Source: Verrucomicrobia bacterium LW23
Lineage (GTDB): Bacteria; Verrucomicrobiota; Verrucomicrobiia; Methylacidiphilales; UBA1321
Assembly: GCA_003054695.1 (NCBI GenBank)
Contig: QAZA01000025.1
Location: forward strand, 186,001-250,000
DNA: 64,000 nucleotides
Reading direction: 5' to 3'
Shown here piece after piece: positions 26,111 to 55,391 of this stretch. Under the pieces are notes generated by a model. The model was given only the letters and a program-made list of their open reading frames with translations, was not told the origin of the DNA and ran no database searches. Position 1 is the stretch's first letter; every line of letters begins with the position of its first letter. Made by a program: the position numbers and the translations under genes.

Positions 26111-26288
26111 AGTTTCTCCGAAGCGGAATGATGTTGCCGATCGTCGCGTTCACAATCCCCTGGTACGGTGAAACAGAAATTTTGGGAGGGACTACGGATG
26201 TCCCTCCCCCATGATATTATTGGGCACTAAGGTAATTCAATTTTCGCAAAATGCCTGCCGATCTTCCTCCCCAAAACTACGATCCTTG

Positions 26289-28991: not shown

Positions 28992-29818
28992 CCAGGACCA
29001 CAAGCCACATTCGCATTGATGTAGATCCGGCCAATCCCGGCCAGTACTTTGCCTGCTGCGGCCTGCTGGAGCTCGCGTCACGGCTGCAGGCTGCGACAGG
29101 CGCATCGGGCTGGTTTGAAGATGGCGCCTTTTGCCTGGCGACGGGGCTAAGCCTTGAGGAACTGATCGGCGCTGTCGGTAGAATCAGTCTGGTGCAGGTG
29201 GACCCCGACGATGGTACGGCGTCGCCAATCCTGATGAAATACGCGCCCGAAATCGGCGCCCCGCCCGTGCCGGGCACAGATCCGTTCGAACTGCTTCTCA
29301 ATTGGTGGAAGTCGGACGATCGCGCGATTACGGACCTGAAAGTCTGGGCCGGCACCATGGACAGTTACCGCATTGCGCGGGCCATGCAGTCCGCCATCCG
29401 CGACAAGCAGTTCTTCCAGCCGAATCTCCTGGATGTTGGCACCATCGCCTACGATCCGGACGAGCCGACCAAGAAGGTGGAGCCCTACTACTTTGACGCC
29501 CGGCGCGCTCCCAACGCCCACTCCCGGGATGTCGGCTTTGCTCCCAATGACCTTGGCATGACGACAACAGCCTACCCTGCCGTCGAGTTCCTCTGCTTCG
29601 TCGGTCTGCAGCGCACCAAGCCGGTGCCGGCGGATCCCGAGCGTCCCCGCATTTTCCGTTACCACCTGTGGTATCAGCCGCTAGACGCCCTGCTCCTGCC
29701 CGCGGCGACGGCCGGGCTCCTTCCCGGCCAGCGCGGGTACGAGTTTGAAAGCATGTTCCGCACGGGCCAGAAGAAGCACAAAGCATTTCAGGCCGCCATG
29801 TCCAAATCTGTCTCCTGA
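28988..29818 (+). CDS. csb3: Type I-G CRISPR effector subunit Csb3
   Basis: A 276-residue protein. The N-terminal signature IRIDVDPANPGQYFACCGLLELA is characteristic of the Csb3/Cas8u2-like subunits of type I-U/I-G systems; positions 111-130 (NWWKSDDRAITDLKVWAGTM) also match the family style. It probably acts as the large or Cas8-like subunit of the effector complex. The start overlaps the cas3 stop by four bases; csb1 follows after 39 bases. The assignment rests on motif memory and position. Confidence 0.8.
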   Translation: MTRTTSHIRIDVDPANPGQYFACCGLLELASRLQAATGASGWFEDGAFCLATGLSLEELIGAVGRISLVQVDPDDGTASPILMKYAPEIGAPPVPGTDPFELLLNWWKSDDRAITDLKVWAGTMDSYRIARAMQSAIRDKQFFQPNLLDVGTIAYDPDEPTKKVEPYYFDARRAPNAHSRDVGFAPNDLGMTTTAYPAVEFLCFVGLQRTKPVPADPERPRIFRYHLWYQPLDALLLPAATAGLLPGQRGYEFESMFRTGQKKHKAFQAAMSKSVS

Positions 29819-29857
29819 ACGAAAAAACCTTGCTACCGTCACCTCACCCCCACTCTC

Positions 29858-30928
29858 ATGAGCAACACGACTACATTCGATTACCTGCTGTCCGACGAAG
29901 GACCTGCCGCGCTTGTTATCCGCCAGCACCTTGTACCGGTTGAAGGGGCTGATGGCGTATTGTTTCCATCGACGTATGCCGCCGGTGACGGTTTTCCCGG
30001 CGGGTACAACATCGACGAATTTCCCAATGGCCGGAACATCTGCCTGATCGACAGCGTAGGTTCACAGGCCAATCGCATCGAGCCCATCTTCATGGAAGAG
30101 AAATACCAGCATCTGGTTCCGCAGATCACGGTCAGAGCCGGAGAGAAAACCGTCAACCTGCTGGAGGCAGGCCATCGCGCGGGCGACGCCATTGTCCGGT
30201 GCACCACTTTAAAGGAGGAGTTTCAAAGTGCCTTCAAAGCATCCCTTAAGGGAGATGCGACGCCGATGGCGAAACTCGCCCCCACGTCCCTTGTCTTCGG
30301 CGTATGGGACTCCCGCGATACACAGGCGAAGCTTCCCCGGCTCGTCTCCTCCACCATCCGCGCCTACAATGTGCGCAAACTCAAGCGCTCCGCGCAGTAT
30401 GTACCTGCTGCGGAGTACATTGCATCGGGATTGCTGGAAGAGCCCGCGGACAAGAAGCTGAAGGATGCCTACTCCGAGCGCGGCTTTATCCATGTACCCG
30501 CCACCGGCGCGCCGGGCGGCGTCATCGCGGAAGGAGGCGTACGCCGCGACGCCACGCTCTCCCTGGCCGCGCTGCGGCTGCTGAACGCGAAGGATACCGA
30601 ATCTACCGTAAAACTCCGGCGCTACATCCTCGGCCTTGCGCTGACGGCCTTTACGCGACCCCCGACGGGTTACCTGCGCCAGGGCTGTTTGCTCGTGCTG
30701 GATCCGGCACCCGCCGTACCCAACGAATTCGTCGAGGTGTTTTCGACAGGCGAGCGTAAGCCGAGCTCCATCACCCACAGCGATGCTCTGGCCTATGCCA
30801 CCGCCTCCGCCGCGGAGTTTGGCGTCGGGGAAAGCCGCACTGCGGATTTTGAGAAAGAGAAGGCGAAGCAGGACATCGCAGGAGACGCGGACACGAAGAC
30901 GAAGCCCAAGAAGGCCAAGGCTACCTGA
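29858..30928 (+). CDS. csb1: Type I-G CRISPR backbone protein Csb1 (Cas7 group RAMP)
   Basis: A 356-residue protein of the GSU0053/Csb1 family, the Cas7-like subunit expected to form the filament along the crRNA. Visible features: FPSTYAAG...GYNIDEFPNGRNICLIDSVGSQANRIEP near the start, LVFGVWDSRDTQAKLPRLVSS in the middle and a Lys-rich tail. Length agrees with the family (~300-360). It lies in the order cas3-csb3-csb1-csb2, with csb2 starting seven bases after its stop. Confidence 0.87.
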   Translation: MSNTTTFDYLLSDEGPAALVIRQHLVPVEGADGVLFPSTYAAGDGFPGGYNIDEFPNGRNICLIDSVGSQANRIEPIFMEEKYQHLVPQITVRAGEKTVNLLEAGHRAGDAIVRCTTLKEEFQSAFKASLKGDATPMAKLAPTSLVFGVWDSRDTQAKLPRLVSSTIRAYNVRKLKRSAQYVPAAEYIASGLLEEPADKKLKDAYSERGFIHVPATGAPGGVIAEGGVRRDATLSLAALRLLNAKDTESTVKLRRYILGLALTAFTRPPTGYLRQGCLLVLDPAPAVPNEFVEVFSTGERKPSSITHSDALAYATASAAEFGVGESRTADFEKEKAKQDIAGDADTKTKPKKAKAT

Positions 30929-30935
30929 GTCGTTT

Positions 30936-32567
30936 ATGACGAAATACCTGAGTATCGCCGTCCGGTTCCTGCAGGGAATGTATCACGGCCGGGCCGACGG
31001 GGGGGAGCCGGAGTGGCCGCCTTCGCCATTGCGCCTCTTCCAGGCCCTGGTTGCCGCTGCAGCGGCACGTGCCAACGAGCGCGAACTCCTCCAGTCCGGC
31101 GCGCCGGCGCTTCTGTGGCTGGAGGACCAGGCGCCTCCTCTCATTGTAGCCCCGGCGATCCGCGTCGGCGCCAAGTACAGGCTCTATGTCCCCGACAACG
31201 TCACCGATCTCGTGGCAAAATCGTGGGCGCGCGGCAACGACGCAAACATCACCGACTACCGCACAGAGAAGGATGTGCGCCCCACGCACATCATGGCGGG
31301 CCATGCCGAAGATCGGGCTGCTACTGGCGATGCGATCCATTATCTGTGGTCCATCGCCGACGACGAGGGGACTTTGCCGGCGCAGTTGGAGGCTCTCGAG
31401 AAGATTGCGCGCTCGGTCACCCACGTGGGGTGGGGTGTCGACCAGGTCGTGGCTCACGCGCAAATCCTTACCAAAGAAAGCGTTGCGGCGCTTTCGGGCC
31501 ATCGGTGGATACCTGTGGAATCCCCCTCCGACTTCTCACTCCGCGTCCCGTGCCGGGGCACGCTGCGCAACCTTGGCCGCAAGCACACGGCATTTCTCGG
31601 CCGCGCTGGCAGGGATACATTTCGTCCTGTTCCCCCGCTTTCCACATTCTCTGTCCAGCATTATCAGCCGGATACGCAACTCGCCCCATCCCCATTCGCC
31701 GCTTTCGGCCTGCTGCAAAACGATGCGGAGGCATACTGCATATTCGATACTGCCCGCCGGGGCCTGCAGGTAGCCGGCATGATGCGTCATGCGGCGAGCC
31801 ATTCCACCATCGCCACATCCCTTGGCTGGACCCAGGAGAAAGTGGGGCAGCTCATCCTGGGCCATGCCGAACCCGAGGGCTCGCCGCACATCCCTGTTGA
31901 CGGGCACCGCATCGCATTCCTTCCACTGCCCAGCCTGGAGAGTCGCGGCGGGAAGAGCAAGGTCCGCACCGTCGGCGCCATCCGCCGCGTCCTTGTCGCC
32001 GGGCTGCGGGGCATTTCCCAGCAGGAAATCAGCGCCCTCGCTCAACGTCTTGCCAACCAGCATCTCATCGACGAAGCCTCCGGAAAACCGGTTGCGCTCC
32101 TCTCCCGGCTTCCAAGGAATGAGAGCATGGTTTGCGAGTACACAAGGCCTTCTGCGACCTGGGCTACGGTAACTCCTGTTATCCTGCCCGGCTTTGATGA
32201 TCCCGGCAAATACCGCCGGCGCCTCGGCGGCTCCGCCGAAGACTCGGCCGTTACGTCAAAAGAGCAACGGCGCATCCTGGAAAAACTCGACTCCCGCGTC
32301 GAGAACCTCCTGCGCAAGGCCATCCGCCAGGCAGGCTATTCTGAAGAACTCGCCACCCACGCCGGGCTGGAGTGGAGAGCGACGGGATTCCTCCCCGGCG
32401 CGGACCTTGCCACGCGCTACCACGTACCCGAAAAATTCCGCCGTTTCCGCCGCGTCCACGTCCGCATTACCTGGAGCGACCGCCGAGGAAACCAGGTCTC
32501 CCTCCCCGGCCCCATCTGTCTCGGGCGCGGCCGCTTTAGCGGGCTGGGGCTATTTGCGGCCATTTAG
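30936..32567 (+). CDS. csb2: Type I-G CRISPR protein Csb2 (Cas5-Cas6 fusion)
   Basis: A 543-residue protein of the GSU0054/Csb2 family, combining a Cas5-like domain (crRNA 5' handle) and a Cas6-like domain (pre-crRNA processing). The ATG at 30936 precedes MTKYLSIAVRFLQGMYHGR, the standard N-terminus with a trailing PEWPPSPLRLFQALVAA; the open frame extends upstream only because it shadows csb1. The C-terminus ends with VHVRITWSDRRGNQVSLPGPICLGRGRFSGLG (Gly-rich RAMP loop). It is the last gene of the cassette. No cas4-cas1, cas2 or repeat array follows. Confidence 0.87.
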   Translation: MTKYLSIAVRFLQGMYHGRADGGEPEWPPSPLRLFQALVAAAAARANERELLQSGAPALLWLEDQAPPLIVAPAIRVGAKYRLYVPDNVTDLVAKSWARGNDANITDYRTEKDVRPTHIMAGHAEDRAATGDAIHYLWSIADDEGTLPAQLEALEKIARSVTHVGWGVDQVVAHAQILTKESVAALSGHRWIPVESPSDFSLRVPCRGTLRNLGRKHTAFLGRAGRDTFRPVPPLSTFSVQHYQPDTQLAPSPFAAFGLLQNDAEAYCIFDTARRGLQVAGMMRHAASHSTIATSLGWTQEKVGQLILGHAEPEGSPHIPVDGHRIAFLPLPSLESRGGKSKVRTVGAIRRVLVAGLRGISQQEISALAQRLANQHLIDEASGKPVALLSRLPRNESMVCEYTRPSATWATVTPVILPGFDDPGKYRRRLGGSAEDSAVTSKEQRRILEKLDSRVENLLRKAIRQAGYSEELATHAGLEWRATGFLPGADLATRYHVPEKFRRFRRVHVRITWSDRRGNQVSLPGPICLGRGRFSGLGLFAAI

Positions 32568-32913: not shown

Positions 32914-34698
32914 TTATCCCTGCACGGATTCCCAACTTAACCCAAAGCGAATCAAATACTTGCGAAGCCGGTCTGCATCGTTGGGCTGGCGTCGCCTGGT
33001 GCGGGAGATGGCGAAAAGGGCGCGGCCGGCGTCGGAGATGGTGCGGCTTTGGCGGCACACGTGGATAACGTGTTGCAGTTGAGCAAGATCGAAGGAGTCA
33101 AGATTTTCCGGGTCTACCCCATCGGGCAGGGGCAGGGGAAGATCGGGACGCGTAACAGTCTGGCTTGCAACAATTTCAGCTGCTTCTGCTTGTACGCGCT
33201 CGGCTGTTCTCCCACTGTCCGTGCCCTCGTCCTGACACTCCGCTCCCCGCCCGAGGGTGCTGCCGGGCACCGCCCATTTGGCGCGCAGCCGTTCGATTTC
33301 CTGGTCCACAACCTCCACGGTAATGCGGCCGGCGCGGGAGAAGGTGGACATGCGCACCACGCTGGCGTTCAGGTCACGGAAATTGGCGCTCCATGTGGCT
33401 TCCCGGCCGGTGGCAAAGGCCAGGTAGCGATCGCGGGCCTCCTTGTTAAAGGCGACGCGGTCGCCGCCGGCGCGGGCGAGCTTTTCCAGCTCAAAATCCA
33501 GGTTGGGCTCGATATCCTCGGCCCGCTCGCGCAGGCCGGGCAGGCGGAAGGTCCACAGGTCGATACGCGCGAGCAGGTCCTCGCGAAAGCGCCCCTCGGC
33601 CACGTCGCGCTGCAGGTCGCGGTTGGTGCCGGCAATCAGCTGGAAGTTGCTGGCCACTTCGCGATCCGCGCCGAGGGGCAAGAAGAGGCGCTCCTCCAGG
33701 GCGCGCAGCAGCATCGCCTGCTCGTCGCAGCCGAGCTCGCCGATTTCGTCCAGGAACAGCAGGCCGCCGTCGGCCGCCTTCAGCAGGCCGGGGCGGTCGC
33801 GCATGGCTCCGGTAAAGCTGCCTTTGATGTGGCCGAAGAGCGTCGACATGGCCGCGTCGCCGCGAATGGTTGCGCAGTTAATGCTCACAAACTCGCCGGT
33901 CACCAGCCGCTTTTGCTTGCGCAGCTCGTACACTTTGCGGGCCATGTGCGATTTGCCGGCACCGGTCGGCCCGGTCAGCAGCATAGGGTCGCGCGATGCA
34001 AGTGCCACGCGCTCCATCTGTTCGATCAGCGCGTTAAAGGAGGCGCTGCGCGTGCTTATGCCGCTTTTGAGCAGGGAGACGCTCTCCTCCTTCTCCTGAT
34101 GAAACCGCGTTGCCAGCCTGTCGTACCGGGAGAGATCGAGGTCGATCAGCGAGTAGGTGCCGACGGAATCTTCCCCGCGCAGGCTGGGGGAGGTCTGCAG
34201 GAGAATGCCTGGGATGTAGCGCGCTTCCGTCAGCAAAAAGAGGCAGATTTGGGCGACATGCGTGCCTGTGGTAATGTGCACCGCGTAGTCCTCCGTCTCC
34301 GGCGAGAAGGGGTAGCCGCGCGCGAAGTCGAGCAGCGCACCATAGACTTCTTCGAAGTCCCACGGGTCAACAAACTCTATATAGTGGCTGCGCACGGTTG
34401 TCTCCGGCGAGACTTGCGCGATGTCGGCGCGAACCTGTGTTGCAATCTTCTCAAAGCGTTGCTGATAAAGTACTTCGAACCGGCTGACGAGCAGTTCCTC
34501 GTGCTGGCACAATGCCACGGAGGGGCGCCACATGTTCCACCGATCCGGCCCGGTGGAGCGATCCAGTTGCGGCCCGAGCAGCCCGATGACGACCAGCTTT
34601 TTGGTGGAGGCCCGGCGCGTCTCCTTCGGAGCGGGCACGGCTGATCGGTGCGAGGGGGATTTCCAGTGTCGGTTTTGCTTGCCGGTTTTCTCTGCCAT
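32914..34698 (-). CDS. rtcR: RtcR, sigma-54-dependent activator of the RNA repair operon
   Basis: A 594-residue regulator. The N-terminal sensor domain (about 30-200, KKLVVIGLLGPQLD ... AVHITTGTHVAQICLFLLTEARYIPG) matches the RtcR N-terminal domain, which belongs to the CARF superfamily and in other bacteria responds to RNA ligands such as broken tRNA. It is followed by an AAA+ sigma-54 interaction domain (Walker A LTGPTGAGKSHMARKV; the GAFTGA loop reads GSFTGA; Walker B LLFLDEIGEL) and a C-terminal DNA-binding region. It is ~60 residues longer than the E. coli protein, mostly at the N-terminus and in the linker near 470-520. Transcribed divergently from ro60, whose sigma-54 promoter at 34868 is its expected target. 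Confidence 0.92.
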   Translation of the reverse strand: MAEKTGKQNRHWKSPSHRSAVPAPKETRRASTKKLVVIGLLGPQLDRSTGPDRWNMWRPSVALCQHEELLVSRFEVLYQQRFEKIATQVRADIAQVSPETTVRSHYIEFVDPWDFEEVYGALLDFARGYPFSPETEDYAVHITTGTHVAQICLFLLTEARYIPGILLQTSPSLRGEDSVGTYSLIDLDLSRYDRLATRFHQEKEESVSLLKSGISTRSASFNALIEQMERVALASRDPMLLTGPTGAGKSHMARKVYELRKQKRLVTGEFVSINCATIRGDAAMSTLFGHIKGSFTGAMRDRPGLLKAADGGLLFLDEIGELGCDEQAMLLRALEERLFLPLGADREVASNFQLIAGTNRDLQRDVAEGRFREDLLARIDLWTFRLPGLRERAEDIEPNLDFELEKLARAGGDRVAFNKEARDRYLAFATGREATWSANFRDLNASVVRMSTFSRAGRITVEVVDQEIERLRAKWAVPGSTLGRGAECQDEGTDSGRTAERVQAEAAEIVASQTVTRPDLPLPLPDGVDPENLDSFDLAQLQHVIHVCRQSRTISDAGRALFAISRTRRRQPNDADRLRKYLIRFGLSWESVQG

Positions 34699-35189
34699 GT
34701 CGACGTTATACTAGCTATAGAGCGCAGAGGCTAGCATATAAGATAGGTACTCCACTTCGTCAGATTTCTGCCAACGCCCGCTCAATACAGTTCTCCCTCT
34801 CCGCGTACTTTTTCAAGCCTCTTATTATGAATGAGTTAGCGATGCAGAAATGCAAGTTCTCAAAAGTTGGCACGCTTTCTGATTACATACAAAACAGAAC
34901 ATCGTCGCATCAATGCAACGACGGGATAAGCGGGAAACCAACCCTAGACGGAAAAGAAAAACATCGCAAACGTGTAAGACAATTTCTTCACCCCGCGATC
35001 TCCTCCTTACCCATTAATGCCTGAGGCGAAGTTCGCAAAAACCCACGACAGGTACTCAGTAACTGCAGTAAAGCATGGATCCGCACGGAATGCCCGGAAG
35101 CATTCCATATAGCAAAATCAAAAGCAGACAAAAGAAGGAAGGATCCCTCTGCATTTAACGCGGTCATCTGGTCCGAAAGGAATACTCCC
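34699..35189. other. Divergent control region and long 5' leader of ro60
   Basis: 491 bases between rtcR and ro60. It holds the sigma-54 promoter at 34868-34883, so the predicted ro60 leader is about 300 bases. In the leader a hairpin CGTCG...CGACG near 34905 and a 7-bp hairpin GGAATGC-CCGGAA-GCATTCC near 35091-35110 are visible. The second resembles the AATGCC motif of the downstream Y-like units, but the stems that define those units are missing. No protein gene is supported. Confidence 0.6.
34868..34883 (+). promoter_or_regulatory. Sigma-54 (-24/-12) promoter for ro60 and the RNA array
   Basis: TGGCACGCTTTCTGAT matches TGGCACG-N4-TTGCW with a perfect -24 box and a weaker -12 box (CTGA instead of TTGC). 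The GG and the -12 G have the required 10-base spacing. It points toward ro60 and lies next to the divergent sigma-54 activator gene rtcR, as in known rtcR-controlled RNA repair operons. Confidence 0.7.
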
Positions 35190-36818
35190 ATGGCTAACAC
35201 GTCGCTCTTCAAATCCATCGTCGGCAAGCTTGTCCCCGCCACCAATACGCGGAACGAAGCCGGTGGAAGCGCCTACGCCTTTACCCCCCGGCACGCCCTG
35301 GCGCAATACGCCACTACCGGCTGCCTTACCCGCACCTACTACGCCAGCGCCGAGACGCAGCTGGAGAAAGTGCTGGGCTTTGCCAGGCAGGTAGCCCCGG
35401 AGTTTCTGGCCAAGACCGCCGTGTACGCTCGTGAGGCCGGCTTTATGAAGGACATGCCCGCGCTGCTGTGCGCCGTGCTGGCCACCCCCGTGGCGCATGC
35501 GGACATCGAGCCCGGCACGCCCGCCGCTGCCGAGCTTGCCGCCGCCAACGCGGCCCGTGCGGAGCTTCTGAAGAAGATCTTCCCCCGTGTGATCGACAAC
35601 GGTCGCATGCTGCGTAACTTCGTGCAGATCATCCGCTCCGGCCAGACGGGCCGCAAGTCCCTGGGCTCGCTGCCCAAGCGCCTGGTGGTGGACTGGCTGA
35701 ACGCCGCCACCGACAAGACGCTCTTTGAGGCCAGCGTAGGCAACGCCCCCAGCCTGGCCGACGTGATCCGCATGGTGCATCCGCGCCCCGCGGACCCCGC
35801 CCGCGCCGCGCTTTACGGCTACCTTATCGATCAACCCCACGACGCCGCGCTGCTGCCCGAGCAGGTGCGCGACTTTGAGGCCTACAAGGCCGGCGCCACC
35901 AGGGTGCTGCCCAAAGTGCCCTTCCAGATGCTGACCGCCCTGGAGCTGGGCAAGGCCGAGTGGACCTCCATCGCCGAGACGGCCCCCTGGCACATGACGC
36001 GTATGAACCTGAACACCTTTGCCCGCCACGGCGTTTTTGATAACAACGACGCCATTGCGGACACGGTAGCCGCCCGGCTGCGCAATGCGGAGGCGATTGG
36101 CAAGGCCCGCGTGTTCCCCTACCAGCTGCTGGCCGCGTACCTCGCCAGCGCCTCCACCAGGGAGGTGCCGCGCAAGGTAACCGAGGCGCTTCAGGACGCG
36201 ATGGAAATCGCGACCGCGAATGTGCCGGTAGTGCAGGGCAAGGTGTGGGTGCTGCCGGACGTGTCGGGCTCCATGAGCTGCCCGGTGAACGGCTACGGCA
36301 CGGCCGTAAGATCCAAAGTGCGCTGCATTGATGTGGCCGCGCTGATCGCCGCGACGATTCTGCGTAAGAATCCCGAGGCGCAGGTGCTGCCCTTCGATAC
36401 CGAGGTGCGCAACGTGACGCTTAATCCCCGCGACAGCGTGATGACCAATGCCCACAAGCTGGCCAGGCTGCAGGGCGGCGGCACCAGTTGCTCCGCGCCC
36501 CTAATTGAGCTGAACCGCCGGCGCGCCCAGGGCGACCTGGTCATCTACGTCTCCGACAACGAGAGCTGGATGGACACGCCCCGCGGCCGCGGCACCTGCG
36601 TCATGCAGGCCTGGAAGGAGTTCAAGAAGCGCAACCCAAACGCAAAGCTGGTGTGCATTGATTTGCAGCCGTACGGCAGCACGCAGGCGGAGGAGGCGGA
36701 CGATATCCTCAACGTCGGCGGCTTCTCGGACCACGTGTTTACCATAGTGCGCGATTTTGCTGAGGGCAACCTGAGCCCCGCGCACTGGGTGGGCGAGATC
36801 GAGAAGATTGCGCTGTAA
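35190..36818 (+). CDS. rsr: Ro60 orthologue (TROVE/vWFA RNA-binding ring protein)
   Basis: A 542-residue protein. Residues about 20-340 form the TROVE module of HEAT-like helical repeats (YATTGCLTRTYYASAETQLEKV, GRKSLGSLPKRLVVDWLNA, TRMNLNTFARHGVF). Residues about 345-540 form the von Willebrand A domain with the MIDAS motif DVSGSMS and matching GGTSCSAPL and YVSDNESWMD loops. Bacterial Ro60 (Rsr) binds Y RNAs and the ends of misfolded RNAs, and helps exonucleases handle structured RNA. It starts the operon that continues with the tRNA/Y-RNA array and rtcB. Confidence 0.95.
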   Translation: MANTSLFKSIVGKLVPATNTRNEAGGSAYAFTPRHALAQYATTGCLTRTYYASAETQLEKVLGFARQVAPEFLAKTAVYAREAGFMKDMPALLCAVLATPVAHADIEPGTPAAAELAAANAARAELLKKIFPRVIDNGRMLRNFVQIIRSGQTGRKSLGSLPKRLVVDWLNAATDKTLFEASVGNAPSLADVIRMVHPRPADPARAALYGYLIDQPHDAALLPEQVRDFEAYKAGATRVLPKVPFQMLTALELGKAEWTSIAETAPWHMTRMNLNTFARHGVFDNNDAIADTVAARLRNAEAIGKARVFPYQLLAAYLASASTREVPRKVTEALQDAMEIATANVPVVQGKVWVLPDVSGSMSCPVNGYGTAVRSKVRCIDVAALIAATILRKNPEAQVLPFDTEVRNVTLNPRDSVMTNAHKLARLQGGGTSCSAPLIELNRRRAQGDLVIYVSDNESWMDTPRGRGTCVMQAWKEFKKRNPNAKLVCIDLQPYGSTQAEEADDILNVGGFSDHVFTIVRDFAEGNLSPAHWVGEIEKIAL

Positions 36819-36842
36819 GCCATTGCGCCACAGATACAAACG

Positions 36843-36882
36843 GGTGCCGTGGGTCGGAGATGGAAATCAGACCTGCGGCATC
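36843..36882 (+). other. Hairpin between ro60 and the tRNA-like array
   Basis: GGTGCCGTGGGTC (36843-36855) pairs with GACCTGCGGCATC (36870-36882): 13 bp with three wobble pairs and a 14-base loop. It lies 24 bases after the ro60 stop, followed by a run of eight G. No T-run, so it may separate or protect mRNA ends rather than terminate. Confidence 0.55.
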
Positions 36883-36900
36883 TCAAGGGGGGGGCATAAA

Positions 36901-36973
36901 GGCTGGGTAGCTCAACAGGCAGAGCGGATCTCTGAAGATGATCAGGTTATACGTTCGAGTCGTATTCCAACCA
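36901..36973 (+). tRNA. tRNA-Phe-like unit (anticodon GAA)
   Basis: 73 bases folding as a cloverleaf. The acceptor GGCTGGG/TCCAACC has one C-A mismatch and one G-T. The D arm is GCTC-AACAGGCA-GAGC. The anticodon loop CTGAAGA gives GAA on a stem with a T-T mismatch at its last pair. The T arm ATACG-TTCGAGT-CGTAT is perfect. Discriminator A, no encoded CCA. It could be a functional but divergent tRNA-Phe or a mimic. It begins the non-coding array, 82 bases after ro60. Confidence 0.75.
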
Positions 36974-37013
36974 GGCGTTCCACTCAAGTCACAGAAGGTA
37001 GAAACACTACTTG

Positions 37014-37084
37014 CGATCCATGTTGTAAAAGCAGCATAGACGGCTGTCTACCGTCAGGAGCGGGAGCATTACCCGCTGGATCGG
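37014..37084 (+). tRNA. tRNA-Asp-like unit (anticodon GTC), odd T-loop
   Basis: 71 bases. Acceptor CGATCCA/TGGATCG is 7 bp perfect; short D arm GTTG-TAAAAG-CAGC; anticodon arm GACGG-CTGTCTA-CCGTC, anticodon GTC; T stem GCGGG/CCCGC perfect. The T-loop reads AGCATTA instead of TTCRANY, and the D-loop has no GG, so the normal D-loop/T-loop contact is not possible. Discriminator G, as in tRNA-Asp. The perfect stems with non-canonical loops suggest a tRNA mimic rather than a translating tRNA. Confidence 0.65.
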
Positions 37085-37152
37085 CACTTCTCCTCGAATA
37101 GTGACTAATTAACTCTAATACTATAGCTAACGCAGTTCCAACTACATACTTT

Positions 37153-37225
37153 TGCGGGGAAGTCAAATGGTTAAGACGCCAGTTTCATAAGCTGGAAACA
37201 GTGGGTTCGATTCCCACCTCCGCAA
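37153..37225 (+). tRNA. tRNA-Met-like unit (anticodon CAT)
   Basis: 73 bases. Acceptor TGCGGGG/CTCCGCA is 7 bp (one G-T); D arm GTC-AAATGGTTAA-GAC; anticodon arm CCAGT-TTCATAA-GCTGG; T arm GTGGG-TTCGATT-CCCAC is perfect with a canonical loop. Discriminator A. CAT could be elongator Met or, if the C is lysidine-modified, Ile. It is the most canonical unit of the array and may be functional. Confidence 0.82.
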
Positions 37226-37301
37226 CCTCTTTCCTTCAGTACTTACATACTCTGTCGCCTGGCTATATCCATGCATAAGGAATGTCTTCACCTGAAAGCA
37301 A

Positions 37302-37376
37302 CAGGCACGAGGAAGACAGTAATCCGTGTGGATTGGGACCATGAGACACGGGGTGCGACTCCCCGGTGCCTGACCA
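37302..37376 (+). tRNA. tRNA-Pro-like unit (anticodon TGG) with encoded CCA
   Basis: 75 bases with an encoded CCA. The acceptor CAGGCAC/GTGCCTG is 7 bp perfect and has the C1-G72 pair typical of bacterial tRNA-Pro. Short D stem GGA/TCC; anticodon loop ATTGGGA giving TGG on a stem with two wobble pairs; T arm CGGGG-TGCGACT-CCCCG with a slightly unusual T-loop. Encoded ACCA follows the acceptor. It is divergent but anticodon and C1-G72 agree on proline identity. Confidence 0.68.
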
Positions 37377-37423
37377 ATTTATAACGGAAGATTCATATCT
37401 TTCCAAACTCACATACTGCTTAC

Positions 37424-37495
37424 GGCGTCATAGTGTAGGGGCTAACATCTCTGATTTTCGCTCAGAAGACGAGGGTTCGACTCCCTCTGGCGCTA
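37424..37495 (+). tRNA. tRNA-Glu-like unit (anticodon TTC)
   Basis: 72 bases. Acceptor GGCGTCA/TGGCGCT with two G-T pairs; three-pair D stem GTG/CAT; anticodon arm TCTGA-TTTTCGC-TCAGA giving TTC; T arm GAGGG-TTCGACT-CCCTC perfect and canonical. Discriminator A. It is the last linear tRNA-like unit before the Y-RNA-like units begin. Confidence 0.75.
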
Positions 37496-37572
37496 CTATC
37501 CATCCTCCCCAACAAGGGACAACTTCACAACAAAACCCTTTACACATATGCAATCCATGCTAAACTACTCCC

Positions 37573-37671
37573 GCTGGGCGAATGCCGGTAGGACTCCATC
37601 TCCACCACAATCGGGGACGCCCATGAGGTAACACTCGTGGATTAAATCTTACCAACTACTTGTCGCCCAGC
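37573..37671 (+). ncRNA. Y-RNA-like unit 1
   Basis: The closing stem GCTGGGCGA (37573-37581) pairs with TCGCCCAGC (37663-37671). After an internal loop (ATGCC on the 5' side, AACTACTTG on the 3' side) a second stem GGTAGGA/TCTTACC forms. The sequence resembles the Ro-binding helix of Y RNAs (5' CCGAAGGTAGT, 3' ACTTGACTAGTC in human Y1). Inside the second stem lie a hairpin TCTCC-ACCACAATC-GGGGA, looking like an acceptor stem closed over an A-CCA, and a hairpin CCATGAG/CTCGTGG. T-rich sequence follows at 37674. Best candidate for the principal Ro60 ligand. Confidence 0.8.
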
Positions 37672-37747
37672 CCTTTTCGTTTTGTGCGAGCGGCAGCAGC
37701 TCCGATTCTACCGCTCTGGTCAACGTGCTCCGGCCGTTTCCGGAACA

Positions 37748-37813
37748 CGGGCCGAATGCCTTGACGGGATTACATTCCATGCCAGCGCAATCTCGTCTAC
37801 CACTAGTCGGCTT
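37748..37813 (+). ncRNA. Y-RNA-like unit 2, minimal form
   Basis: The closing stem GGCCGA (37750-37755) pairs with TCGGCT (37807-37812), and a second stem GACGGGAT (37763-37770) with ATCTCGTC (37790-37797). Between them is the AATGCC motif on the 5' side and CTACCACTAG on the 3' side. Only 19 bases remain inside, so there is no room for a tRNA-like module. A separate 9-base hairpin (GTGCTCCGG/CCGGAACAC) lies just upstream. Confidence 0.6.
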
Positions 37814-37837
37814 CAGAGCAACATCATTATCCCCGGT

Positions 37838-37982
37838 TTACTGGCGGCAAATGCCAGATGGAACTACATAGGGAGCGTAAGGTGCGGGTTCAAATCCTGC
37901 CCCGCTGACCAATCGGCGGGTGGCTTAACCTGGCAGAGCGTACGCTTAAAACGTTTCATCGCCCTCTTGTTGCCGTCAGTAA
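37838..37982 (+). ncRNA. Y-RNA-like unit 3 with complete circularly permuted tRNA
   Basis: Closing stem TTACTGGCGGCAA (37838-37850) pairs with TTGCCGTCAGTAA (37970-37982), 13 bp with one wobble. AATGCC motif follows; second stem GATGGAA/TTTCATC. Inside, in this order: anticodon-stem 3' strand AGCGTA (37874-37879), T arm GCGGG-TTCAAAT-CCTGC (37884-37900), acceptor 3' strand CCCGCTG, linker ACCAAT, acceptor 5' strand CGGCGGG (37914-37920), D arm GCTT-AACCTGGCA-GAGC (37923-37939), anticodon-stem 5' strand TACGCT (37941-37946). All stems pair in normal tRNA topology. The molecule is a tRNA opened in the anticodon loop, where the Y stem attaches, with its ends joined through ACCA. Confidence 0.85.
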
Positions 37983-38011
37983 CGCGGAGATAAAGTTATT
38001 CTTCTACCACC

Positions 38012-38154
38012 TTCTGATAAATGCCCGACGGACCTACATGGTAAGAGCAGGCTCTCTGAAAAGCGAGCCAGGTCGCGGACTTCGACATCCGCACGTAAAG
38101 GCTAAAGCTTTGACGTTAGCTCAGTAACTGTTCGCCAAATCCTTGTTATCAGAA
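38012..38154 (+). ncRNA. Y-RNA-like unit 4 with tRNA-Phe-like module opened in the D-loop
   Basis: Closing stem TTCTGATAA (38012-38020) pairs perfectly with TTATCAGAA (38146-38154); AATGCC motif; second stem CGGAC/GTTCG. Inside, in order: D-stem 3' strand GAGC (38045-38048), anticodon arm GGCTC/GAGCC with a TCTGAAAAGC loop (GAA, Phe-like), T arm GCGGA-CTTCGACA-TCCGC (38075-38092), acceptor 3' strand ACGTAAAG, linker GCTAAAG, acceptor 5' strand CTTTGACGT (one bulged G), then TA and D-stem 5' strand GCTC (38119-38122). The D stem GCTC/GAGC therefore closes the module onto the Y stem: the circular permutation is cut in the D-loop, not the anticodon loop. Confidence 0.8.
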
Positions 38155-38182
38155 TACCCACGTTATTCCACTCCTTCCGCCA

Positions 38183-38288
38183 CTGTCAGCAAATGCCTGC
38201 GGAATTACACTGGCACCCTGTGCAGGTTCGAATCCTGCGCTGGCCCCACGGCCGGACAGGGAATTTCGCAACTGTTTGTTGCTGACAG
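38183..38288 (+). ncRNA. Y-RNA-like unit 5 with T-arm/acceptor mini-helix
   Basis: Closing stem CTGTCAGCAA (38183-38192) pairs perfectly with TTGCTGACAG (38279-38288). AATGCC motif, then second stem TGCGGAATT/AATTTCGCA (9 bp, one wobble). Inside: CCCTGT/ACAGGG closes a module with T arm GCAGG-TTCGAAT-CCTGC (perfect, canonical loop) and a six-pair acceptor-like hairpin CTGGCC-CCAC-GGCCGG whose loop starts with CCA. No D arm. It reads as a reduced version of unit 3. Confidence 0.78.
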
Positions 38289-38331
38289 GATTATCGACTC
38301 CTCAACTATTCTATATCATCAGTGCACATAA

Positions 38332-38449
38332 GTCTGCCGGCAAATGCCTGCGGAACTACATAACGCCTCTAAGGTGCGGGACTACTCACCGCTTCCCCAC
38401 TCCGTAAGGAAGGAAGGCAGGCTTTCGCAATATCTTGTTGCTGTCAGAC
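38332..38449 (+). ncRNA. Y-RNA-like unit 6, reduced and degenerate module
   Basis: Closing stem GTCTGCCGGCAA (38332-38343) pairs with TTGCTGTCAGAC (38438-38449), 12 positions with one mismatch. AATGCC motif; second stem TGCGGAA/TTTCGCA. Inside: a degenerate T arm (GCGGG/ACCGC, loop ACTACTC) and an acceptor-like hairpin CTTCC/GGAAG whose loop CCACTCCGTAA starts with CCA. Similar plan to unit 5 but with a non-canonical T-loop. Confidence 0.7.
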
Positions 38450-38472
38450 AATAGTGCATATCAACGCCGCTT

Positions 38473-38599
38473 TGAAGTCAAATGCAGATGGAACTACATT
38501 CCAAACCGAAGATCAGGTTCGATTCCTGACTCGCTTGCAAGAGCGACGGAGTATGGTTACTCGTCGGATATACGTTTCATCAATACCTCGTTGACTTCA
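38473..38599 (+). ncRNA. Y-RNA-like unit 7 with permuted tRNA opened in the anticodon arm
   Basis: Closing stem TGAAGTCAA (38473-38481) pairs perfectly with TTGACTTCA (38591-38599). Motif AATGCA; second stem GATGGAAC/GTTTCATC (8 bp). Inside, in order: anticodon-stem-like CCGA (38506-38509), T arm TCAGG-TTCGATT-CCTGA (38513-38529), short acceptor hairpin TCGCT-TGCAAG-AGCGA, D arm GAGT-ATGGTT-ACTC (38549-38562), then TCGG (38564-38567). Same order as unit 3, with a shortened acceptor and no CCA. It ends 30 bases before the rtcB start. Confidence 0.78.
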
Positions 38600-38629
38600 T
38601 CTCTTTACACTCCCCTACACAAAAACAAT

Positions 38630-40195
38630 ATGAACATCCAGGCTGAAGAAATGCCCGCCGTTGCGGTGATCCCCGCGCCTCCCACCGCCCCGCGGCGGCC
38701 GGAAGATCTCGTTATTCACGTCACCGGCGAGGCCACTGGCTTCATCCCGGCCCCGGGAAGCAACGGCAAACCCATCACCGTCATCGGCACGGAGGCTATC
38801 CGTAACGCCTTCGACACCACATGCTTACGACAGGCGCTCAACTCTCGCGGCGCCCCTGGCGTCACCGACCTGGTGTTGAACCCCGACGCGCACGCCGGCT
38901 ACGGAGCGCCTATCGGCTGCGTTATGGTCTCGCCAACGCACATTTACCCCGGCCCCGTAGGTGTCGACATCAAGTGCTCCATGTCGTTGCTGCAGACGGA
39001 CTTACCCGAGGAGGCGATTAACGAGAAGCCCATTCGTCGCGCCATTATCAACGCCATCCTGGAACGCATCCCCACCGGCCCCGGCCGTGGCCAGCGCAGC
39101 GTAAAGAAGTCCCGCGCAGTGGGTTACGACCTGGGCCGCCGCGTCGTGGCCGAAGGCGCGTGCGAGGCCGTATGTACCGCGCTCGGCATCCCGCCCGAGT
39201 GGGCGCACCGCTGCGAGGACGCCTTTCATCGGGGCCACGACGACACCGTCGCCGCCCTGGAGGCGCGCATCGATCGCATCTACAACGGTCAGTTTACGCG
39301 CTTTGAAGGCAAGATGCGCCAGCTCGGCTCCTACGGAGGAGGCAATCACTTCGGCGAGTGCGAAGTGGTTCGTGTCCAACAGGATACGCACATGCGTGCG
39401 ATTGCGGAGACGTTCGGCCTGCTCGATGGACGCATCGCGTTTCTCTCCCACTGCGGCTCCCGCGGTTTCGGCTACGACCTGGCGGAAAACCAGTTCCGTG
39501 CCCTACAACGCAAGTTTGCGCAGTGGAACATCCCGCTACCCGGCGGCGACCGCGAGCTCGTCTACGCACCGCTGGGCACACCGGAAGCCAACGACTACAT
39601 TGACGACATGGCGCTCGGCGCCAACTTTGCCACTGTTAACCACTTGCTTATCAACGCATTAGTGCTGGAAGCCTTTCAGGAGATCATTCCCGGAACCACG
39701 GGAACCCTGGTCTACTTCATCAGCCACAATATTGCACGTAAGGAATTGGTGGACAACAAGTTAGCGTGGGTTCACCGCAAAGGCGCCACGCGCGCTTTCC
39801 CGGCGGGCCACCACGCCTTGCGTCACACGCCGTTCGCCGAAACCGGCCACCCGATTCTGCTACCCGGCAACCCGCGCGACGGCTCCGCCGTGATGGTGGC
39901 TAACCAGGGCGCCGCGCTTAGCTGCTACAGTGTCAACCACGGGGCAGGACGCGCGATGGGCCGCAAAGCCGCGATCCGCACGCTGGATCAGGACGCTATC
40001 GAAAAGGAGCTGGCCGATGCCGACATTCTGAGCAACTGCCGCAAGTACCCCACCGACGAAGCGCCCGCCGCGTACAAAGACTTTGCGGAAGTACTTCGCT
40101 CCGTGGAGCTTGCGGGCCTTGCCAGCAAGGTGGCCGACCTCCGCGCACGCTTCGTCATTAAAGATGCCGATGAAAGTCTGCGCGGTGCAGCGTGA
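38630..40195 (+). CDS. rtcB: RNA-splicing ligase RtcB
   Basis: A 521-residue GTP- and Mn-dependent RNA ligase joining 2',3'-cyclic-phosphate (or 3'-phosphate) ends to 5'-OH ends. The ATG at 38630 is used; the frame is open upstream only through the non-coding array. Active-site features: PDAHAGYGAPIGCV, VGVDIKCSM (metal ligands Asp 113 and Cys 116), GGGNHFGECE, SHCGSRGFG, HNIARKE, RKGATRAFPAG, and VNHGAGRAMGR containing the guanylylated His. It is somewhat longer than the common ~400-480 residues. In the same direction as ro60 and the array, so probably co-transcribed from the sigma-54 promoter. Confidence 0.95.
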   Translation: MNIQAEEMPAVAVIPAPPTAPRRPEDLVIHVTGEATGFIPAPGSNGKPITVIGTEAIRNAFDTTCLRQALNSRGAPGVTDLVLNPDAHAGYGAPIGCVMVSPTHIYPGPVGVDIKCSMSLLQTDLPEEAINEKPIRRAIINAILERIPTGPGRGQRSVKKSRAVGYDLGRRVVAEGACEAVCTALGIPPEWAHRCEDAFHRGHDDTVAALEARIDRIYNGQFTRFEGKMRQLGSYGGGNHFGECEVVRVQQDTHMRAIAETFGLLDGRIAFLSHCGSRGFGYDLAENQFRALQRKFAQWNIPLPGGDRELVYAPLGTPEANDYIDDMALGANFATVNHLLINALVLEAFQEIIPGTTGTLVYFISHNIARKELVDNKLAWVHRKGATRAFPAGHHALRHTPFAETGHPILLPGNPRDGSAVMVANQGAALSCYSVNHGAGRAMGRKAAIRTLDQDAIEKELADADILSNCRKYPTDEAPAAYKDFAEVLRSVELAGLASKVADLRARFVIKDADESLRGAA

Positions 40196-40269: not shown

Positions 40270-41391
40270 TTACTTTTTCTCTTCAACCTCATAGATATGA
40301 CGGGCAGAGCCCACAATCTTGGGATCCGAAGGAGCAAGTGAGCCAAGATCTTTGCCAATGTAAGGAATAGAACTGAGCATGTACTTGATGGCGTTAAGCC
40401 GTGCTCGCTTCTTATCATCGCTGCGAACTACCGTCCACGGCGCATCGGCTGTATCTGTATAAAACAGCATAGCTTCCTTCGCTTTTGTATACTCGTCCCA
40501 ACGGCCCAGAGATTCAACATCCATTGGGCTCAGCTTCCACTGCTTGAGAGGATCCTTTGCGCGGCTAAGGAATCTGCGCAGCTGTTCTTCGCGGCTGACA
40601 GAGAACCAGAACTTGATAAGTTTAATACCACTACGTACAAGCATACGCTCATACTCAGGTGCCTGTCGCATAAACTCGAGGTATTCGTGGCTTGAGCAAA
40701 AACCCATGACATGTTCAACACCGGCACGATTATACCAGCTGCGATCAAAGAAAACAATTTCGCCCTTCGTCGGTAATTGCTGAATATAGCGTTGAAAATA
40801 CCACTGGCCACGCTCCGTTTCCGAAGGCTTGGTCAACGCGACAACGCGGGCGCCGCGAGGATTTAGATTTTCAGTAAATCGCTTGATCGTTCCCCCTTTG
40901 CCGGCAGCATCGCGCCCTTCAAACACGAGTACAACCCGCTCGCCAGTCTCCTTCACCCAGGATTGCATTTTGACGAGCTCAATTTGCAGGAGCTCAATCT
41001 CATCTTCGTACTCCTCCCGTAGCATGAGCTCCGGATACGGGTAAGTGCTGCTGATAATCTCCTTCTTCTTGGCAGATTTAATTTTATCCGTAATCGCTTT
41101 GGGAACCGAGGTGCGCACTTGCTCTGCCACCAGTTCCACCATGGGAAAGGAGGATGCATTGACCTTCACGTTGCTCAGCAACTTCTTGCGATCTTTATGT
41201 TTAGCCGCTTTCTCCCGCTTTGCCGCATTGCGATCAACTTCGACGAGCTCCGGCGCTTCCAGCTCTATCGTCGGCTTCTCGGCAACGGGGGGCTGCGGCG
41301 GGGTGGAGGTCTCAGCAGGCGGCACCATGTCCGCCTGCTGAGCATCTGTAACCTGCTCATTAGCATTGACTTCTGAGTTCGTGGTTTCCAT
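40270..41391 (-). CDS. ppk2: Polyphosphate kinase 2 family protein
   Basis: A 373-residue PPK2 kinase, transferring phosphate between polyphosphate and nucleotides. A ~75-residue Pro/Glu/Lys-rich N-terminal extension precedes the catalytic domain. Motifs: Walker A VLVFEGRDAAGKGGTIKRF, lid PSETERGQWYFQRY, Walker B-containing IVFFDRSWYNRAGVEHVMGF, and the C-terminal DDKKRARLNAIKYML. The direction (NMP or NDP phosphorylation) cannot be decided by eye. It is on the opposite strand, between rtcB and rtcA, whose products consume GTP and ATP; supply of nucleotides under stress is an attractive but unproven link. Confidence 0.92.
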   Translation of the reverse strand: METTNSEVNANEQVTDAQQADMVPPAETSTPPQPPVAEKPTIELEAPELVEVDRNAAKREKAAKHKDRKKLLSNVKVNASSFPMVELVAEQVRTSVPKAITDKIKSAKKKEIISSTYPYPELMLREEYEDEIELLQIELVKMQSWVKETGERVVLVFEGRDAAGKGGTIKRFTENLNPRGARVVALTKPSETERGQWYFQRYIQQLPTKGEIVFFDRSWYNRAGVEHVMGFCSSHEYLEFMRQAPEYERMLVRSGIKLIKFWFSVSREEQLRRFLSRAKDPLKQWKLSPMDVESLGRWDEYTKAKEAMLFYTDTADAPWTVVRSDDKKRARLNAIKYMLSSIPYIGKDLGSLAPSDPKIVGSARHIYEVEEKK

Positions 41392-41499
41392 AGCAAATTG
41401 AGTAGTAGCGAAAAAGATTGACCGGGCCGTGCTTAGTCTCGCATTGCCAACGCCATCTGTTAAGTCTCAACTTTGCAAATTCACGGAGTATCGCCTGAT

Positions 41500-42552
41500 A
41501 TGATTCACATCGATGGGAGCGCCGGCGAGGGCGGCGGGCAAATCTTGCGTACGGCACTGGCATTGTCCATGTGCACGGGCCAGCCGTTTCGCATGTCCAA
41601 CATCCGGGCGGGGCGCAAGAAGCCGGGCCTTATGCGGCAACACCTTACAGCGGTTCAGGCCGCTTACGCCATTACAGGATCGCAAGGCGCGCCGGTTGCA
41701 ACCGGGGCGCTTGAGCTTGAGTTTGTGCCGGGCGTGGTGGCGCCAGGCAACCACACATTTGCTGTGGGGACGGCCGGTAGCGCAACACTGGTGCTGCAAA
41801 CGGTACTTCCTGCGCTGCTGATGGTTACGCAAGCGGCCGGAGCGGACGAGTCACCCATGGAATCCACATTGGTGTGCCAGGGTGGCACGCACAACCCATT
41901 CGCGCCTCCGTTCGATTTCCTTGAGCGCAGTTTTGCGCCAGTGCTCCGCCGGATGGGCGCGAAGATTGGGTTGACTTTGACGCGTCCGGGATTTTATCCC
42001 GCGGGAGGTGGGGAGATGCTCGCAAGGATTACGCAAGTGCCTAAGCTAAAGCACCTTAGCTTAGTGGAAAAAGGAGCGCTTGTGCGTCGGCGCGCCTTGG
42101 TTCTCCTGGCCTGCTTGTCGCGAAACATTGGCGAGCGGGAAATCCATGCGCTCCAGGCGAAATTGTCGTGGCCAAAGGATACATTTGAGTTGAAGGAGGT
42201 TGCAGGAGCTACCGGACCGGGCAACGTGATTATCATCGAGCAGGAGTTCGAGCATGTTACCGAAATAGTTACTGGATTTGGAGAACGAGGTGTTTCGGCC
42301 GAGCGTGTGGTTGAGCTTGCGATCGAGAAAGTGCGGCGATACGAGGTGGCGGCGGCCGCCGGGGCCGTAGTGGGGGAACACCTTGCAGATCAACTACTTG
42401 TGCCGATGGCGCTTGCGGGTGGCGGGGAGTTTCTGACGATGCGGCCTTCGCGACATTCTGTCACTAATGCGGATACGATCCGTAAGTTCCTGGATATCCC
42501 CATTCGTTTTACGCAACGGGCAGAGGATGTCTGGCATTGTGTGGTGGGGTAA
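41500..42552 (+). CDS. rtcA: RNA 3'-terminal phosphate cyclase
   Basis: A 350-residue enzyme that converts RNA 3'-phosphates to 2',3'-cyclic phosphates using ATP. The ATG at 41500 precedes MIHIDGSAGEGGGQILRTAL, the family N-terminus; a TTG at 41473 is an upstream alternative. Other signatures: IRAGRKKPGLMRQHLTAV, GTAGSATLVLQTVLP, RPGFYPAGGGEM, and RPSRHSVTNADTIRKF containing the nucleotidylated His. Length matches E. coli RtcA. It is divergent from the PPK2 gene, so it has its own promoter. Together with RtcB it can heal and seal broken RNA. Confidence 0.94.
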   Translation: MIHIDGSAGEGGGQILRTALALSMCTGQPFRMSNIRAGRKKPGLMRQHLTAVQAAYAITGSQGAPVATGALELEFVPGVVAPGNHTFAVGTAGSATLVLQTVLPALLMVTQAAGADESPMESTLVCQGGTHNPFAPPFDFLERSFAPVLRRMGAKIGLTLTRPGFYPAGGGEMLARITQVPKLKHLSLVEKGALVRRRALVLLACLSRNIGEREIHALQAKLSWPKDTFELKEVAGATGPGNVIIIEQEFEHVTEIVTGFGERGVSAERVVELAIEKVRRYEVAAAAGAVVGEHLADQLLVPMALAGGGEFLTMRPSRHSVTNADTIRKFLDIPIRFTQRAEDVWHCVVG

Positions 42553-54090: not shown

Positions 54091-54768
54091 CTAGCCCAGC
54101 GCGGCGAGAATCTTGTCCGAGTCCGAGACCCAGCCAAAAATGCCGCCCTGCGCCTTGATCATCTTGAGGCCCATCTCCTGAAATTCCGGAAAGTACGAGC
54201 CGACGCAGTCCGACGGCACCAGGCAGTCGTACCCGCGATCATTGGCTTCGCGTACCGTAGTGTTGACACAAACCTCTGTGGTTACGCCGGTTACGACCAG
54301 CTTCTTAATCCCCTTGTTTTGCAGAATCGCCTGCAGGTCGGTGGCGAAGAACGCGCCCTTGCCGGGCTTGTCGATCACCGGCTCGTCGGGCAGCGGGTAA
54401 AGCTCCTTAATGATGTCGTGCCCTTCCTCTCCACGCACCAGGATGCGCCCCATCGGGCCAACATCGCCGATCGTCGTGGCGCTTTTGCCGCGGATCTTCT
54501 TGGCGGGCGGCAGGTCCGTCAGGTCGGGGCGGTGCCCTTCGCGGGTGTGAATCACCTGCAGGCCCGCCGCGCGCCAGGCGGCCAGAAGCTTTTTGTTGGG
54601 CTCGATAGTGCGGCGCAGCTGGCTGACATCATTGCCCAGCATTTCTCCAAAGCCGCCGGGCTCCAGGAAATCGCGCTGCATGTCGATGATGACCAGCGCT
54701 GTCTCGGCCGGTATGAATTCAAAAGCGTACGGTTCTGCTTCTACGGATACGAGGGTGCTCGTGCTCAT
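54091..54768 (-). CDS. Isochorismatase-family cysteine hydrolase, biuret-amidohydrolase-like
   Basis: A 225-residue cytoplasmic amidohydrolase. Catalytic triad positions: Asp in ALVIIDMQRDF, Lys in DKPGKGAFFATDL, Cys in VTGVTTEVCVNTTVREANDRGY. The segment [17 protein letters not shown] is typical of the biuret hydrolase group (biuret to allophanate plus ammonia), related to RutB. Pairing with a divergent allophanate hydrolase gene strongly supports biuret or a related ureide as substrate. Preceded by a sigma-54 promoter at 54869 and a shared upstream palindrome at 55070. Confidence 0.85.
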   Translation of the reverse strand: MSTSTLVSVEAEPYAFEFIPAETALVIIDMQRDFLEPGGFGEMLGNDVSQLRRTIEPNKKLLAAWRAAGLQVIHTREGHRPDLTDLPPAKKIRGKSATTIGDVGPMGRILVRGEEGHDIIKELYPLPDEPVIDKPGKGAFFATDLQAILQNKGIKKLVVTGVTTEVCVNTTVREANDRGYDCLVPSDCVGSYFPEFQEMGLKMIKAQGGIFGWVSDSDKILAALG

Positions 54769-54868
54769 CCAGATGGGTCCTCCTGGTGGTGGCGACGTTG
54801 GGGAGTGGGCAAGCCCCTGGCTTCAAACGGGAAGCCAGGGACGCATGTATGCCTACAAAAAGTGCCCT

Positions 54869-55278: not shown

Positions 55279-55391
55279 GATACGTTGTCGCACAGCGCCA
55301 CACCCTGTGTGCTGGCTGCGCGAACTTCGACAGCTTCGCACCGCCTGAGCACGCGTCAAGCCCGCAATACTTATCTCCTACACTAACTGGC

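Follow-up and report, generated by a model that had tools for sequence, protein, structure and literature searches.

The 64-kb window (the whole stretch of DNA analysed here) encodes a Ro60-family protein (ro60) divergently from the activator gene rtcR, and 1.8 kb of small-RNA sequence separates ro60 from rtcB on the same strand. What drives ro60, do the RNA array and rtcB belong to its transcript, and could the array RNAs act back on RtcR? The original prediction placed all three under RtcR through a sigma-54 promoter, TGGCACGCTTTCTGAT, which lies between rtcR and ro60 on the plus strand and reads into ro60. On direct checking, its sequence, position, strand and divergent rtcR neighbour were as claimed. 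Table 1 collects the features of the locus.

Table 1. Features of the rtcR-ro60-rtcB locus, in window coordinates
Feature	Position	Strand	Basis
rtcR, sigma-54 activator with RtcR/CARF, AAA+ and C-terminal domains	34698 to 32914	-	PF06956, Sigma54_activat, NF038308
Predicted RtcR enhancer (UAS) palindrome CTAGCATATAAGATAG	34731..34746		motif trained on 55 loci without the window
Predicted sigma-54 (-24/-12) promoter TGGCACGCTTTCTGAT	34868..34883	+	ortholog conservation and matrix score
Predicted ro60 5' leader, ~295 nt	34895..35189	+	start from sigma-54 spacing rule
ro60 (rsr)	35190..36818	+	PF25045 vWA_Ro60 69.7 bits, TROVE 25.2 bits, both above cut-off
tRNA-Phe-like (gaa), several mismatched pairs	36901..36973	+	ARAGORN; RF00005 53.0 bits
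Degenerate tRNA-shaped RNA, GTC in anticodon loop, no standard T loop	37014..37083	+	cloverleaf-like MFE fold, by eye
tRNA-Met (cat)	37153..37227	+	ARAGORN; RF00005 63.1 bits
Second degenerate tRNA-like unit, paired 7-bp ends	37302..37375	+	fold, by eye
tRNA-Glu (ttc)	37424..37496	+	ARAGORN; RF00005 59.6 bits
Y-RNA-like unit 1	37573..37671	+	motif and closing stem
Y-RNA-like unit 2	37838..37982	+	motif and closing stem; RF02553 YrlA 44.4 bits
Y-RNA-like unit 3	38012..38154	+	motif and closing stem
Y-RNA-like unit 4	38183..38288	+	motif and closing stem; RF02553 41.1 bits
Y-RNA-like unit 5	38333..38449 (38338-38443 in looser scan)	+	motif and closing stem; RF02553 27.0 bits
Y-RNA-like unit 6	38473..38599	+	motif and closing stem; RF02553 38.3 bits
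rtcB, RNA ligase family	38630..40195	+	PF01139 338.5 bits
ppk2, between rtcB and rtcA	40270..41391	-	TIGR03707 above cut-off
rtcA, RNA 3'-phosphate cyclase	41473..42552	+	NF003246, TIGR03399 above cut-off

A conserved sigma-54 site upstream of ro60

The consensus fit of TGGCACGCTTTCTGAT is weak. The site has two mismatches, and its -12 element reads GA where GC is the usual form. A consensus scan of the 64 kb allowing up to two mismatches returned 18 matches against 31.8 expected, which is no enrichment over chance. The consensus search alone was therefore dropped as support for the site and replaced by a comparison of orthologs. The sigma-54 weights of the locus scan and the starting consensus are general background values for such promoters, and the sequences called shuffles here are first-order Markov resamplings.

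The set of ro60 loci comprised the best 80 of 387 genome-contig loci, 3 plasmid loci, 1 phage locus and 36 viral contigs; the viral-contig search found no Ro60 when run with a single protein and found the 36 loci when run with an alignment. Loci in which tblastn placed RtcR within 700 bp upstream of ro60 form the divergent group, and a site was called when the best plus-strand sigma-54 score reached p<=0.05 against resampled sequence. A TGGCAC-type site directed toward ro60 is present in 55 of the 59 divergent intergenic regions, which span many phyla; these loci are not fully independent because of common descent, yet their Ro60 proteins are only ~50-60% identical to that of the window. Sites are almost absent from viral ro60 loci (1 of 37 phage and viral loci, phage Mx1 (L040) included; Fisher p 1e-20 versus the divergent group) and are found in 6 of 20 ro60 loci without detected RtcR (Fisher p 7e-8 versus the same group) and in 1 of 4 with a distant RtcR. 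Three of the six site-positive loci without detected RtcR (L049, L056 and L107) have less than 400 bp of upstream sequence each, so RtcR may be cut off there. One viral locus (L144) is cut inside ro60, with the wrong stretch scanned, and is counted in the 37 and excluded from the 36-locus enhancer control below. The rule also has exceptions, since four Caulobacterales-type loci (L088, L091, L096 and L099) have no site despite a divergent RtcR. Upstream of ro60, these four instead share a stretch that contains an inverted repeat.

On a matrix built from the 55 orthologous sites, TGGCACGCTTTCTGAT scores 15.4 bits, within the ortholog range of 12.6-20.6 and above 17 of the 55 orthologs. When every position of the window is scored on either strand, it ranks third. 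Of 2000 Markov resamplings of the 491-bp rtcR-ro60 intergenic region, 1 reached its score. An A occupies the same -12 position in 4 of the 55 orthologous sites. TGGCACGCCTTTTGATTA of Salmonella (STM0649.S), which has the same ending, was bound by sigma-54 in ChIP-chip, and its operon was induced 11-fold with a constitutive activator, according to the available part of that report (PMC3844500). RpoN is encoded once in the window's own genome.

Could TGGCACGCTTTCTGAT nevertheless be a look-alike that arose by chance, with ro60 driven by another promoter? Such a reading would fit the abundance of two-mismatch consensus matches in the window, the imperfect -12 element and the long leader. We consider it very improbable, because the site is conserved in orthologs and an enhancer is likewise found at the right distance from it (see below). 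That TGGCACGCTTTCTGAT is more than chance is thus judged on ortholog conservation and not on consensus fit. In all likelihood, TGGCACGCTTTCTGAT is a sigma-54 promoter of known type for ro60. A footprint from close relatives does not enter this judgement, since ro60 is absent from most of them (a match in 2 of 116 related genomes, the window's own among them).

The window also has a second sigma-54 neighbourhood, unrelated to rtc, at 54091-63427. Here TGGCACGGCCGCTGCT at 54869 (minus strand) lies 5' of an isochorismatase-like gene and TGGCACATCCGTTGCT at 62403 (plus strand) 5' of a porin-like gene, with genes for an amidase/allophanate-hydrolase-like protein, a hybrid histidine kinase and a sigma-54 response regulator between them (all named by eye from translations).

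RtcR and its predicted enhancer

The divergent gene encodes an activator with CARF-type and sigma-54 AAA+ domains, as is characteristic of RtcR repair operons. The protein passes the NCBIfam equivalog NF038308 (789 bits, cut-off 650), is 59% identical to E. coli RtcR, and has Walker motifs and a GSFTGA loop where E. coli reads GAFTGA. Its true start is uncertain because the first 32 amino acids have no counterpart.

Training on the sequence that separates rtcR from the sigma-54 site in 55 loci, with the window left out, yielded a palindromic motif of about YTATC-N6-GATAR. The best match to it in the 64 kb, CTAGCATATAAGATAG, scores 15.3 bits, a value equalled by none of 500 resampled sequences, and the runner-up scores 9.6 bits. 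CTAGCATATAAGATAG lies 137 bp upstream of the promoter, and most orthologs have their match 113-147 bp upstream. Matches of at least 9 bits occur in 50 of the 55 training loci versus 2 of 36 viral and 2 of 20 RtcR-less ro60 loci. An independent set of 29 further RtcR loci from Verrucomicrobiota, none of them used for training (the best 30 of the search minus the window's own, with overlap checked) gave such matches in 10 of 13 loci with a sigma-54 site of at least 12.5 bits versus 3 of 16 without one (Fisher p 0.003). The E. coli operon is described, in the available text, as carrying an RtcR UAS and an IHF site (PMC9650030). Our motif finds its best UAS-like matches in the rtcR/rtcB region of E. 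coli K-12 (8.9 and 8.6 bits) at 123 and 133 bp upstream of TGGCACGACGGTTGCAAT. These patterns make CTAGCATATAAGATAG a likely RtcR enhancer. A search of the window's own genome for a second RtcR target, using the UAS plus TGGCAC, gave 2 hits including TGGCACGCTTTCTGAT; the reversed-pattern control also gave 2, so the pattern alone proves little.

One predicted transcript from ro60 to rtcB

The ro60 product misses the cut-off of the NCBIfam Rsr model (NF041674, 98.2 bits, cut-off 900) but satisfies those of the Pfam Ro60 vWA and TROVE models, and we therefore call it a Ro60-family protein. It is 48% identical to the Ro60 of phage Mx1 and ~49-61% identical to those of the bacterial loci listed. 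rtcB lies 3' of ro60 on the same strand in at least 62 of the 83 bacterial loci, a lower bound because the query was the window protein alone; the annotated rtcB of one locus (L039) was missed.

No plus-strand terminator-like site was found from 34687 to 39424. Given the gene order, the shared direction and this lack of an intervening terminator-like site, ro60, the array and rtcB are most likely cotranscribed, and the ortholog sites, the UAS and the encoded RpoN make the transcript most likely one under RtcR and sigma-54. The claimed control by RtcR thus holds up at the ro60 promoter itself, where the ortholog sites and the UAS bear on it, and would reach the array and rtcB by way of the predicted cotranscription.

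Alternatively, the Y units, the tRNAs or both could be made from a housekeeping promoter inside the array, which would leave ro60, and rtcB through read-through, as the only RtcR-responsive genes. A sigma-70-like match with a TG extension (37539-37566) does lie just 5' of the first Y-like unit. However, sigma-70-like matches occur there at chance level (2 found, 2.4 expected), and no plus-strand terminator-like site separates ro60 from the array. We regard an internal promoter as rather unlikely and keep the single transcript as the preferred reading.

rtcA is probably outside this transcript. It does not share an operon with rtcB, since the opposing ppk2 stands between them, and no high-scoring sigma-54 or UAS match lies just upstream of it among the top matches listed. 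Several ro60 loci show no rtcA by tblastn, and we therefore treat it as a usual but not essential operon member.

Two other features of the region were seen. On the minus strand at 34900-34923, just inside the predicted transcript start, a ten-pair hairpin is followed by a T-rich run; it could stop antisense transcription toward rtcR, and such sites occur at chance level. Just before rtcR, at 26211-32567, lie a helicase-like gene and further large genes that by eye resemble a type I CRISPR-Cas set.

A long leader

We take the ro60 transcript to start at ~34895, from the spacing rule for sigma-54 promoters. The distance from the site to the ATG is 322 bp, compared with 48-206 bp in the 55 orthologs, and is the longest of the set. 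The leader folds only mildly more stably than resampled sequence does (z -1.70; 8 of 200 resamplings no less stable), has no match in Rfam and no meaningful BLAST match among the compared loci (best E 4.1), and is single copy in its genome. On these grounds, we rejected the leader as a known RNA, a repeat or a conserved element. Of the leader of about 300 bases with hairpins in the original prediction, the length stands. The leader is unusually long and is not clearly structured.

An array of tRNAs, tRNA-like units and Y-RNA-like units

The three tRNAs called in the array pass the RF00005 gathering threshold of 29 bits (53.0-63.1 bits), and ARAGORN made no call for the two degenerate units. 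That the array tRNAs are duplicates of host tRNAs was rejected: each is at most 70% identical to any of the 53 ARAGORN-called host tRNAs. For Phe, Met and Glu(ttc), further tRNAs are encoded elsewhere in the host genome.

The remaining six units share a closing helix whose 5' side carries AATGC ... RNYTAC and whose 3' side carries TTGT; this motif was read by eye from these same units and is expected 0.0 times in gap shuffles. Four of them score against the YrlA model RF02553 but miss its gathering score of 69 (27.0-44.4 bits), and for this reason we call the units Y-RNA-like; Y units of relatives pass the model with 85.6, 78.8, 75.9 and 74.5 bits. The gaps after ro60 in the 83 bacterial loci hold 207 Y-like units versus 3.6 expected, with 0-6 per locus, so that the six of the window tie the maximum, which is found in four loci. 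An earlier scan requiring a 7-pair stem undercounted (none in L091, whose units are obvious on inspection), and the counts given are from a looser scan.

Outside the RtcR-linked arrangement, eight loci (L043, L045, L046, L052, L053, L058, L110 and L111) and phage L040 have ro60 placed after, or in the midst of, several to many tRNA genes, with no RtcR detected nearby and, in several, Y-like units upstream of ro60. The viral loci L127, L128, L132, L152 and L154 have ro60 and nearby Y-like units without RtcR, and L132 also has an rtcB relative.

Do the array RNAs feed back on RtcR?

The premise that RtcR activators elsewhere sense RNA ends is established in Salmonella, where, in the available parts of the published work, the RtcR CARF domain binds 5' tRNA halves ending in a 2',3'-cyclic phosphate. 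With the promoter acting as described above, cut tRNA-like RNAs from the array that end in a cyclic phosphate could bind to RtcR and either strengthen or dampen its activity. An anticodon-type loop is present in the three array tRNAs and in one degenerate unit, and tRNA-like units of this kind are possible ligands. Salmonella RtcR, however, bound one tRNA-Leu half in preference to halves of tRNA-Trp and tRNA-Phe, and fragments of YrlA, the Y RNA encoded in its own operon, were not detected in the data available from that source, which makes the Y-like RNAs unlikely ligands. No feature of the sequence demands feedback. We therefore hold feedback by array RNAs to be quite unlikely and favour RtcR control of the operon without such a loop. 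The idea of RtcR-like CARF proteins coupled to RNA-fragment feedback has already been put forward for CoCoNuT systems, according to the available text.

tRNA genes inside repair operons

Intact tRNA genes recur in a few other operons of this kind. ARAGORN calls a tRNA-Arg(acg) between two Y units in the ro60-rtcB gap of L060, a tRNA-Arg(acg) in that of L105 and a tRNA-Asn(gtt) in that of L079, and all three loci carry the sigma-54 site. The four Caulobacterales-type loci have 2-7 ordinary tRNAs and 5-6 Y-like units ahead of rtcB, the tRNAs being drawn from Gln, Arg, Leu, His, Asn, Pro and Tyr. In L100 (Asp, Arg) and L111 (Thr, Gln), tRNAs lie 3' of ro60 with no rtcB in view. A tRNA-Leu in L076 was not counted because it sits within a Y-like unit. 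Searches of an open-access library returned no report of tRNA genes inside Ro60/rtcB operons.

Colicin E5 cleaves Tyr, His, Asn and Asp tRNAs. RtcR operons are reportedly activated by toxins that cleave tRNA-Arg and tRNA-Met, in the part of the literature available. In Anabaena, a silent tRNA array (the trn operon) is co-regulated with rtcB by the repressor TrcR (PMC10272220, available in part). The recurrence of intact tRNAs in a few other operons, the activating toxins and the Anabaena parallel together suggest that RtcR repair operons can carry damage-induced spare tRNAs, such that broken tRNAs would induce, through one sigma-54 promoter, the ligase for their repair, Ro60 and Y-like RNAs to handle the damaged molecules, and fresh copies of vulnerable tRNAs. 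We offer this tentatively and think it doubtful on present counts, the independent cases being few. Under this reading, the sequences suggest as candidate spares Met, Glu and perhaps Phe in the window, and Arg(ACG) and Asn in other ro60/rtcB operons; the group without a visible sigma-54 site would add His, Tyr, Gln, Leu and Pro.

Discussion

The locus very probably belongs to the rsr-Y RNA-rtcB type of RNA-repair operon and is controlled by RtcR and sigma-54, with an enhancer, a promoter, one transcript and rtcA outside it, as read from the sequence. In the mechanism we propose, RtcR would assemble at the palindrome, the DNA would loop across ~137 bp, and RtcR would open sigma-54 RNA polymerase at TGGCACGCTTTCTGAT. 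A single transcript from ~34895 would then carry ro60, the array of tRNA, tRNA-like and Y-RNA-like units, and rtcB, and rtcA would not be part of it. The Y-like RNAs would be partners of Ro60, and the array tRNAs together with RtcB may restore the tRNA pool.

A close known parallel is the rsr-yrlBA-rtcBA operon of Salmonella Typhimurium, whose expression depends on sigma-54 and RtcR according to the sources available to us in part (PMC7790460, PMC9879122, PMC9650030, PMC3844500, PMC11090510 and PMC10272220 for the literature drawn on as a whole). It shares with the window the divergent rtcR, a sigma-54 promoter (TGGCACGCTGGTTGCAAT) before rsr and the order Ro60, Y RNAs, rtcB. Unlike it, the window has six Y-like units, tRNA and tRNA-like units, a ~295-nt leader and an rtcA split off by ppk2. 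E. coli K-12 rtcBA likewise has a divergent RtcR, the site TGGCACGACGGTTGCAAT and UAS-like palindromes near rtcR, but neither ro60 nor an RNA array between rtcR and rtcB. The loci of Chthoniobacter, Pedosphaera, Schlesneria, Rhizobium, Methylosinus and others have the same gene order and sigma-54 site and mostly a UAS and Y-like arrays, and differ from the window in mostly having no ARAGORN tRNA in the gap and in their shorter leaders. The trn operon of Anabaena resembles the window in being a stress-induced tRNA array that shares control with rtcB; in contrast, its regulator is a repressor and not RtcR, the array is on a megaplasmid and rtcB on the chromosome, and the available text makes no mention of Ro60 (PMC10272220).

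The switch is thus of a known type, and the operon is a variant through its mixed RNA array and split rtcA; the tRNA genes embedded in it are the less familiar part of the locus. The analysis brings Verrucomicrobiota within the range of sigma-54/RtcR control over Ro60, Y-like RNAs and RtcB, and supplies a concrete motif for the enhancer. Should the embedded tRNAs prove to be functional spares, a repair operon would replace tRNAs as well as mend them. That would account for the tRNA genes within it and offer a direct way to test the purpose of Ro60/Y RNA operons.
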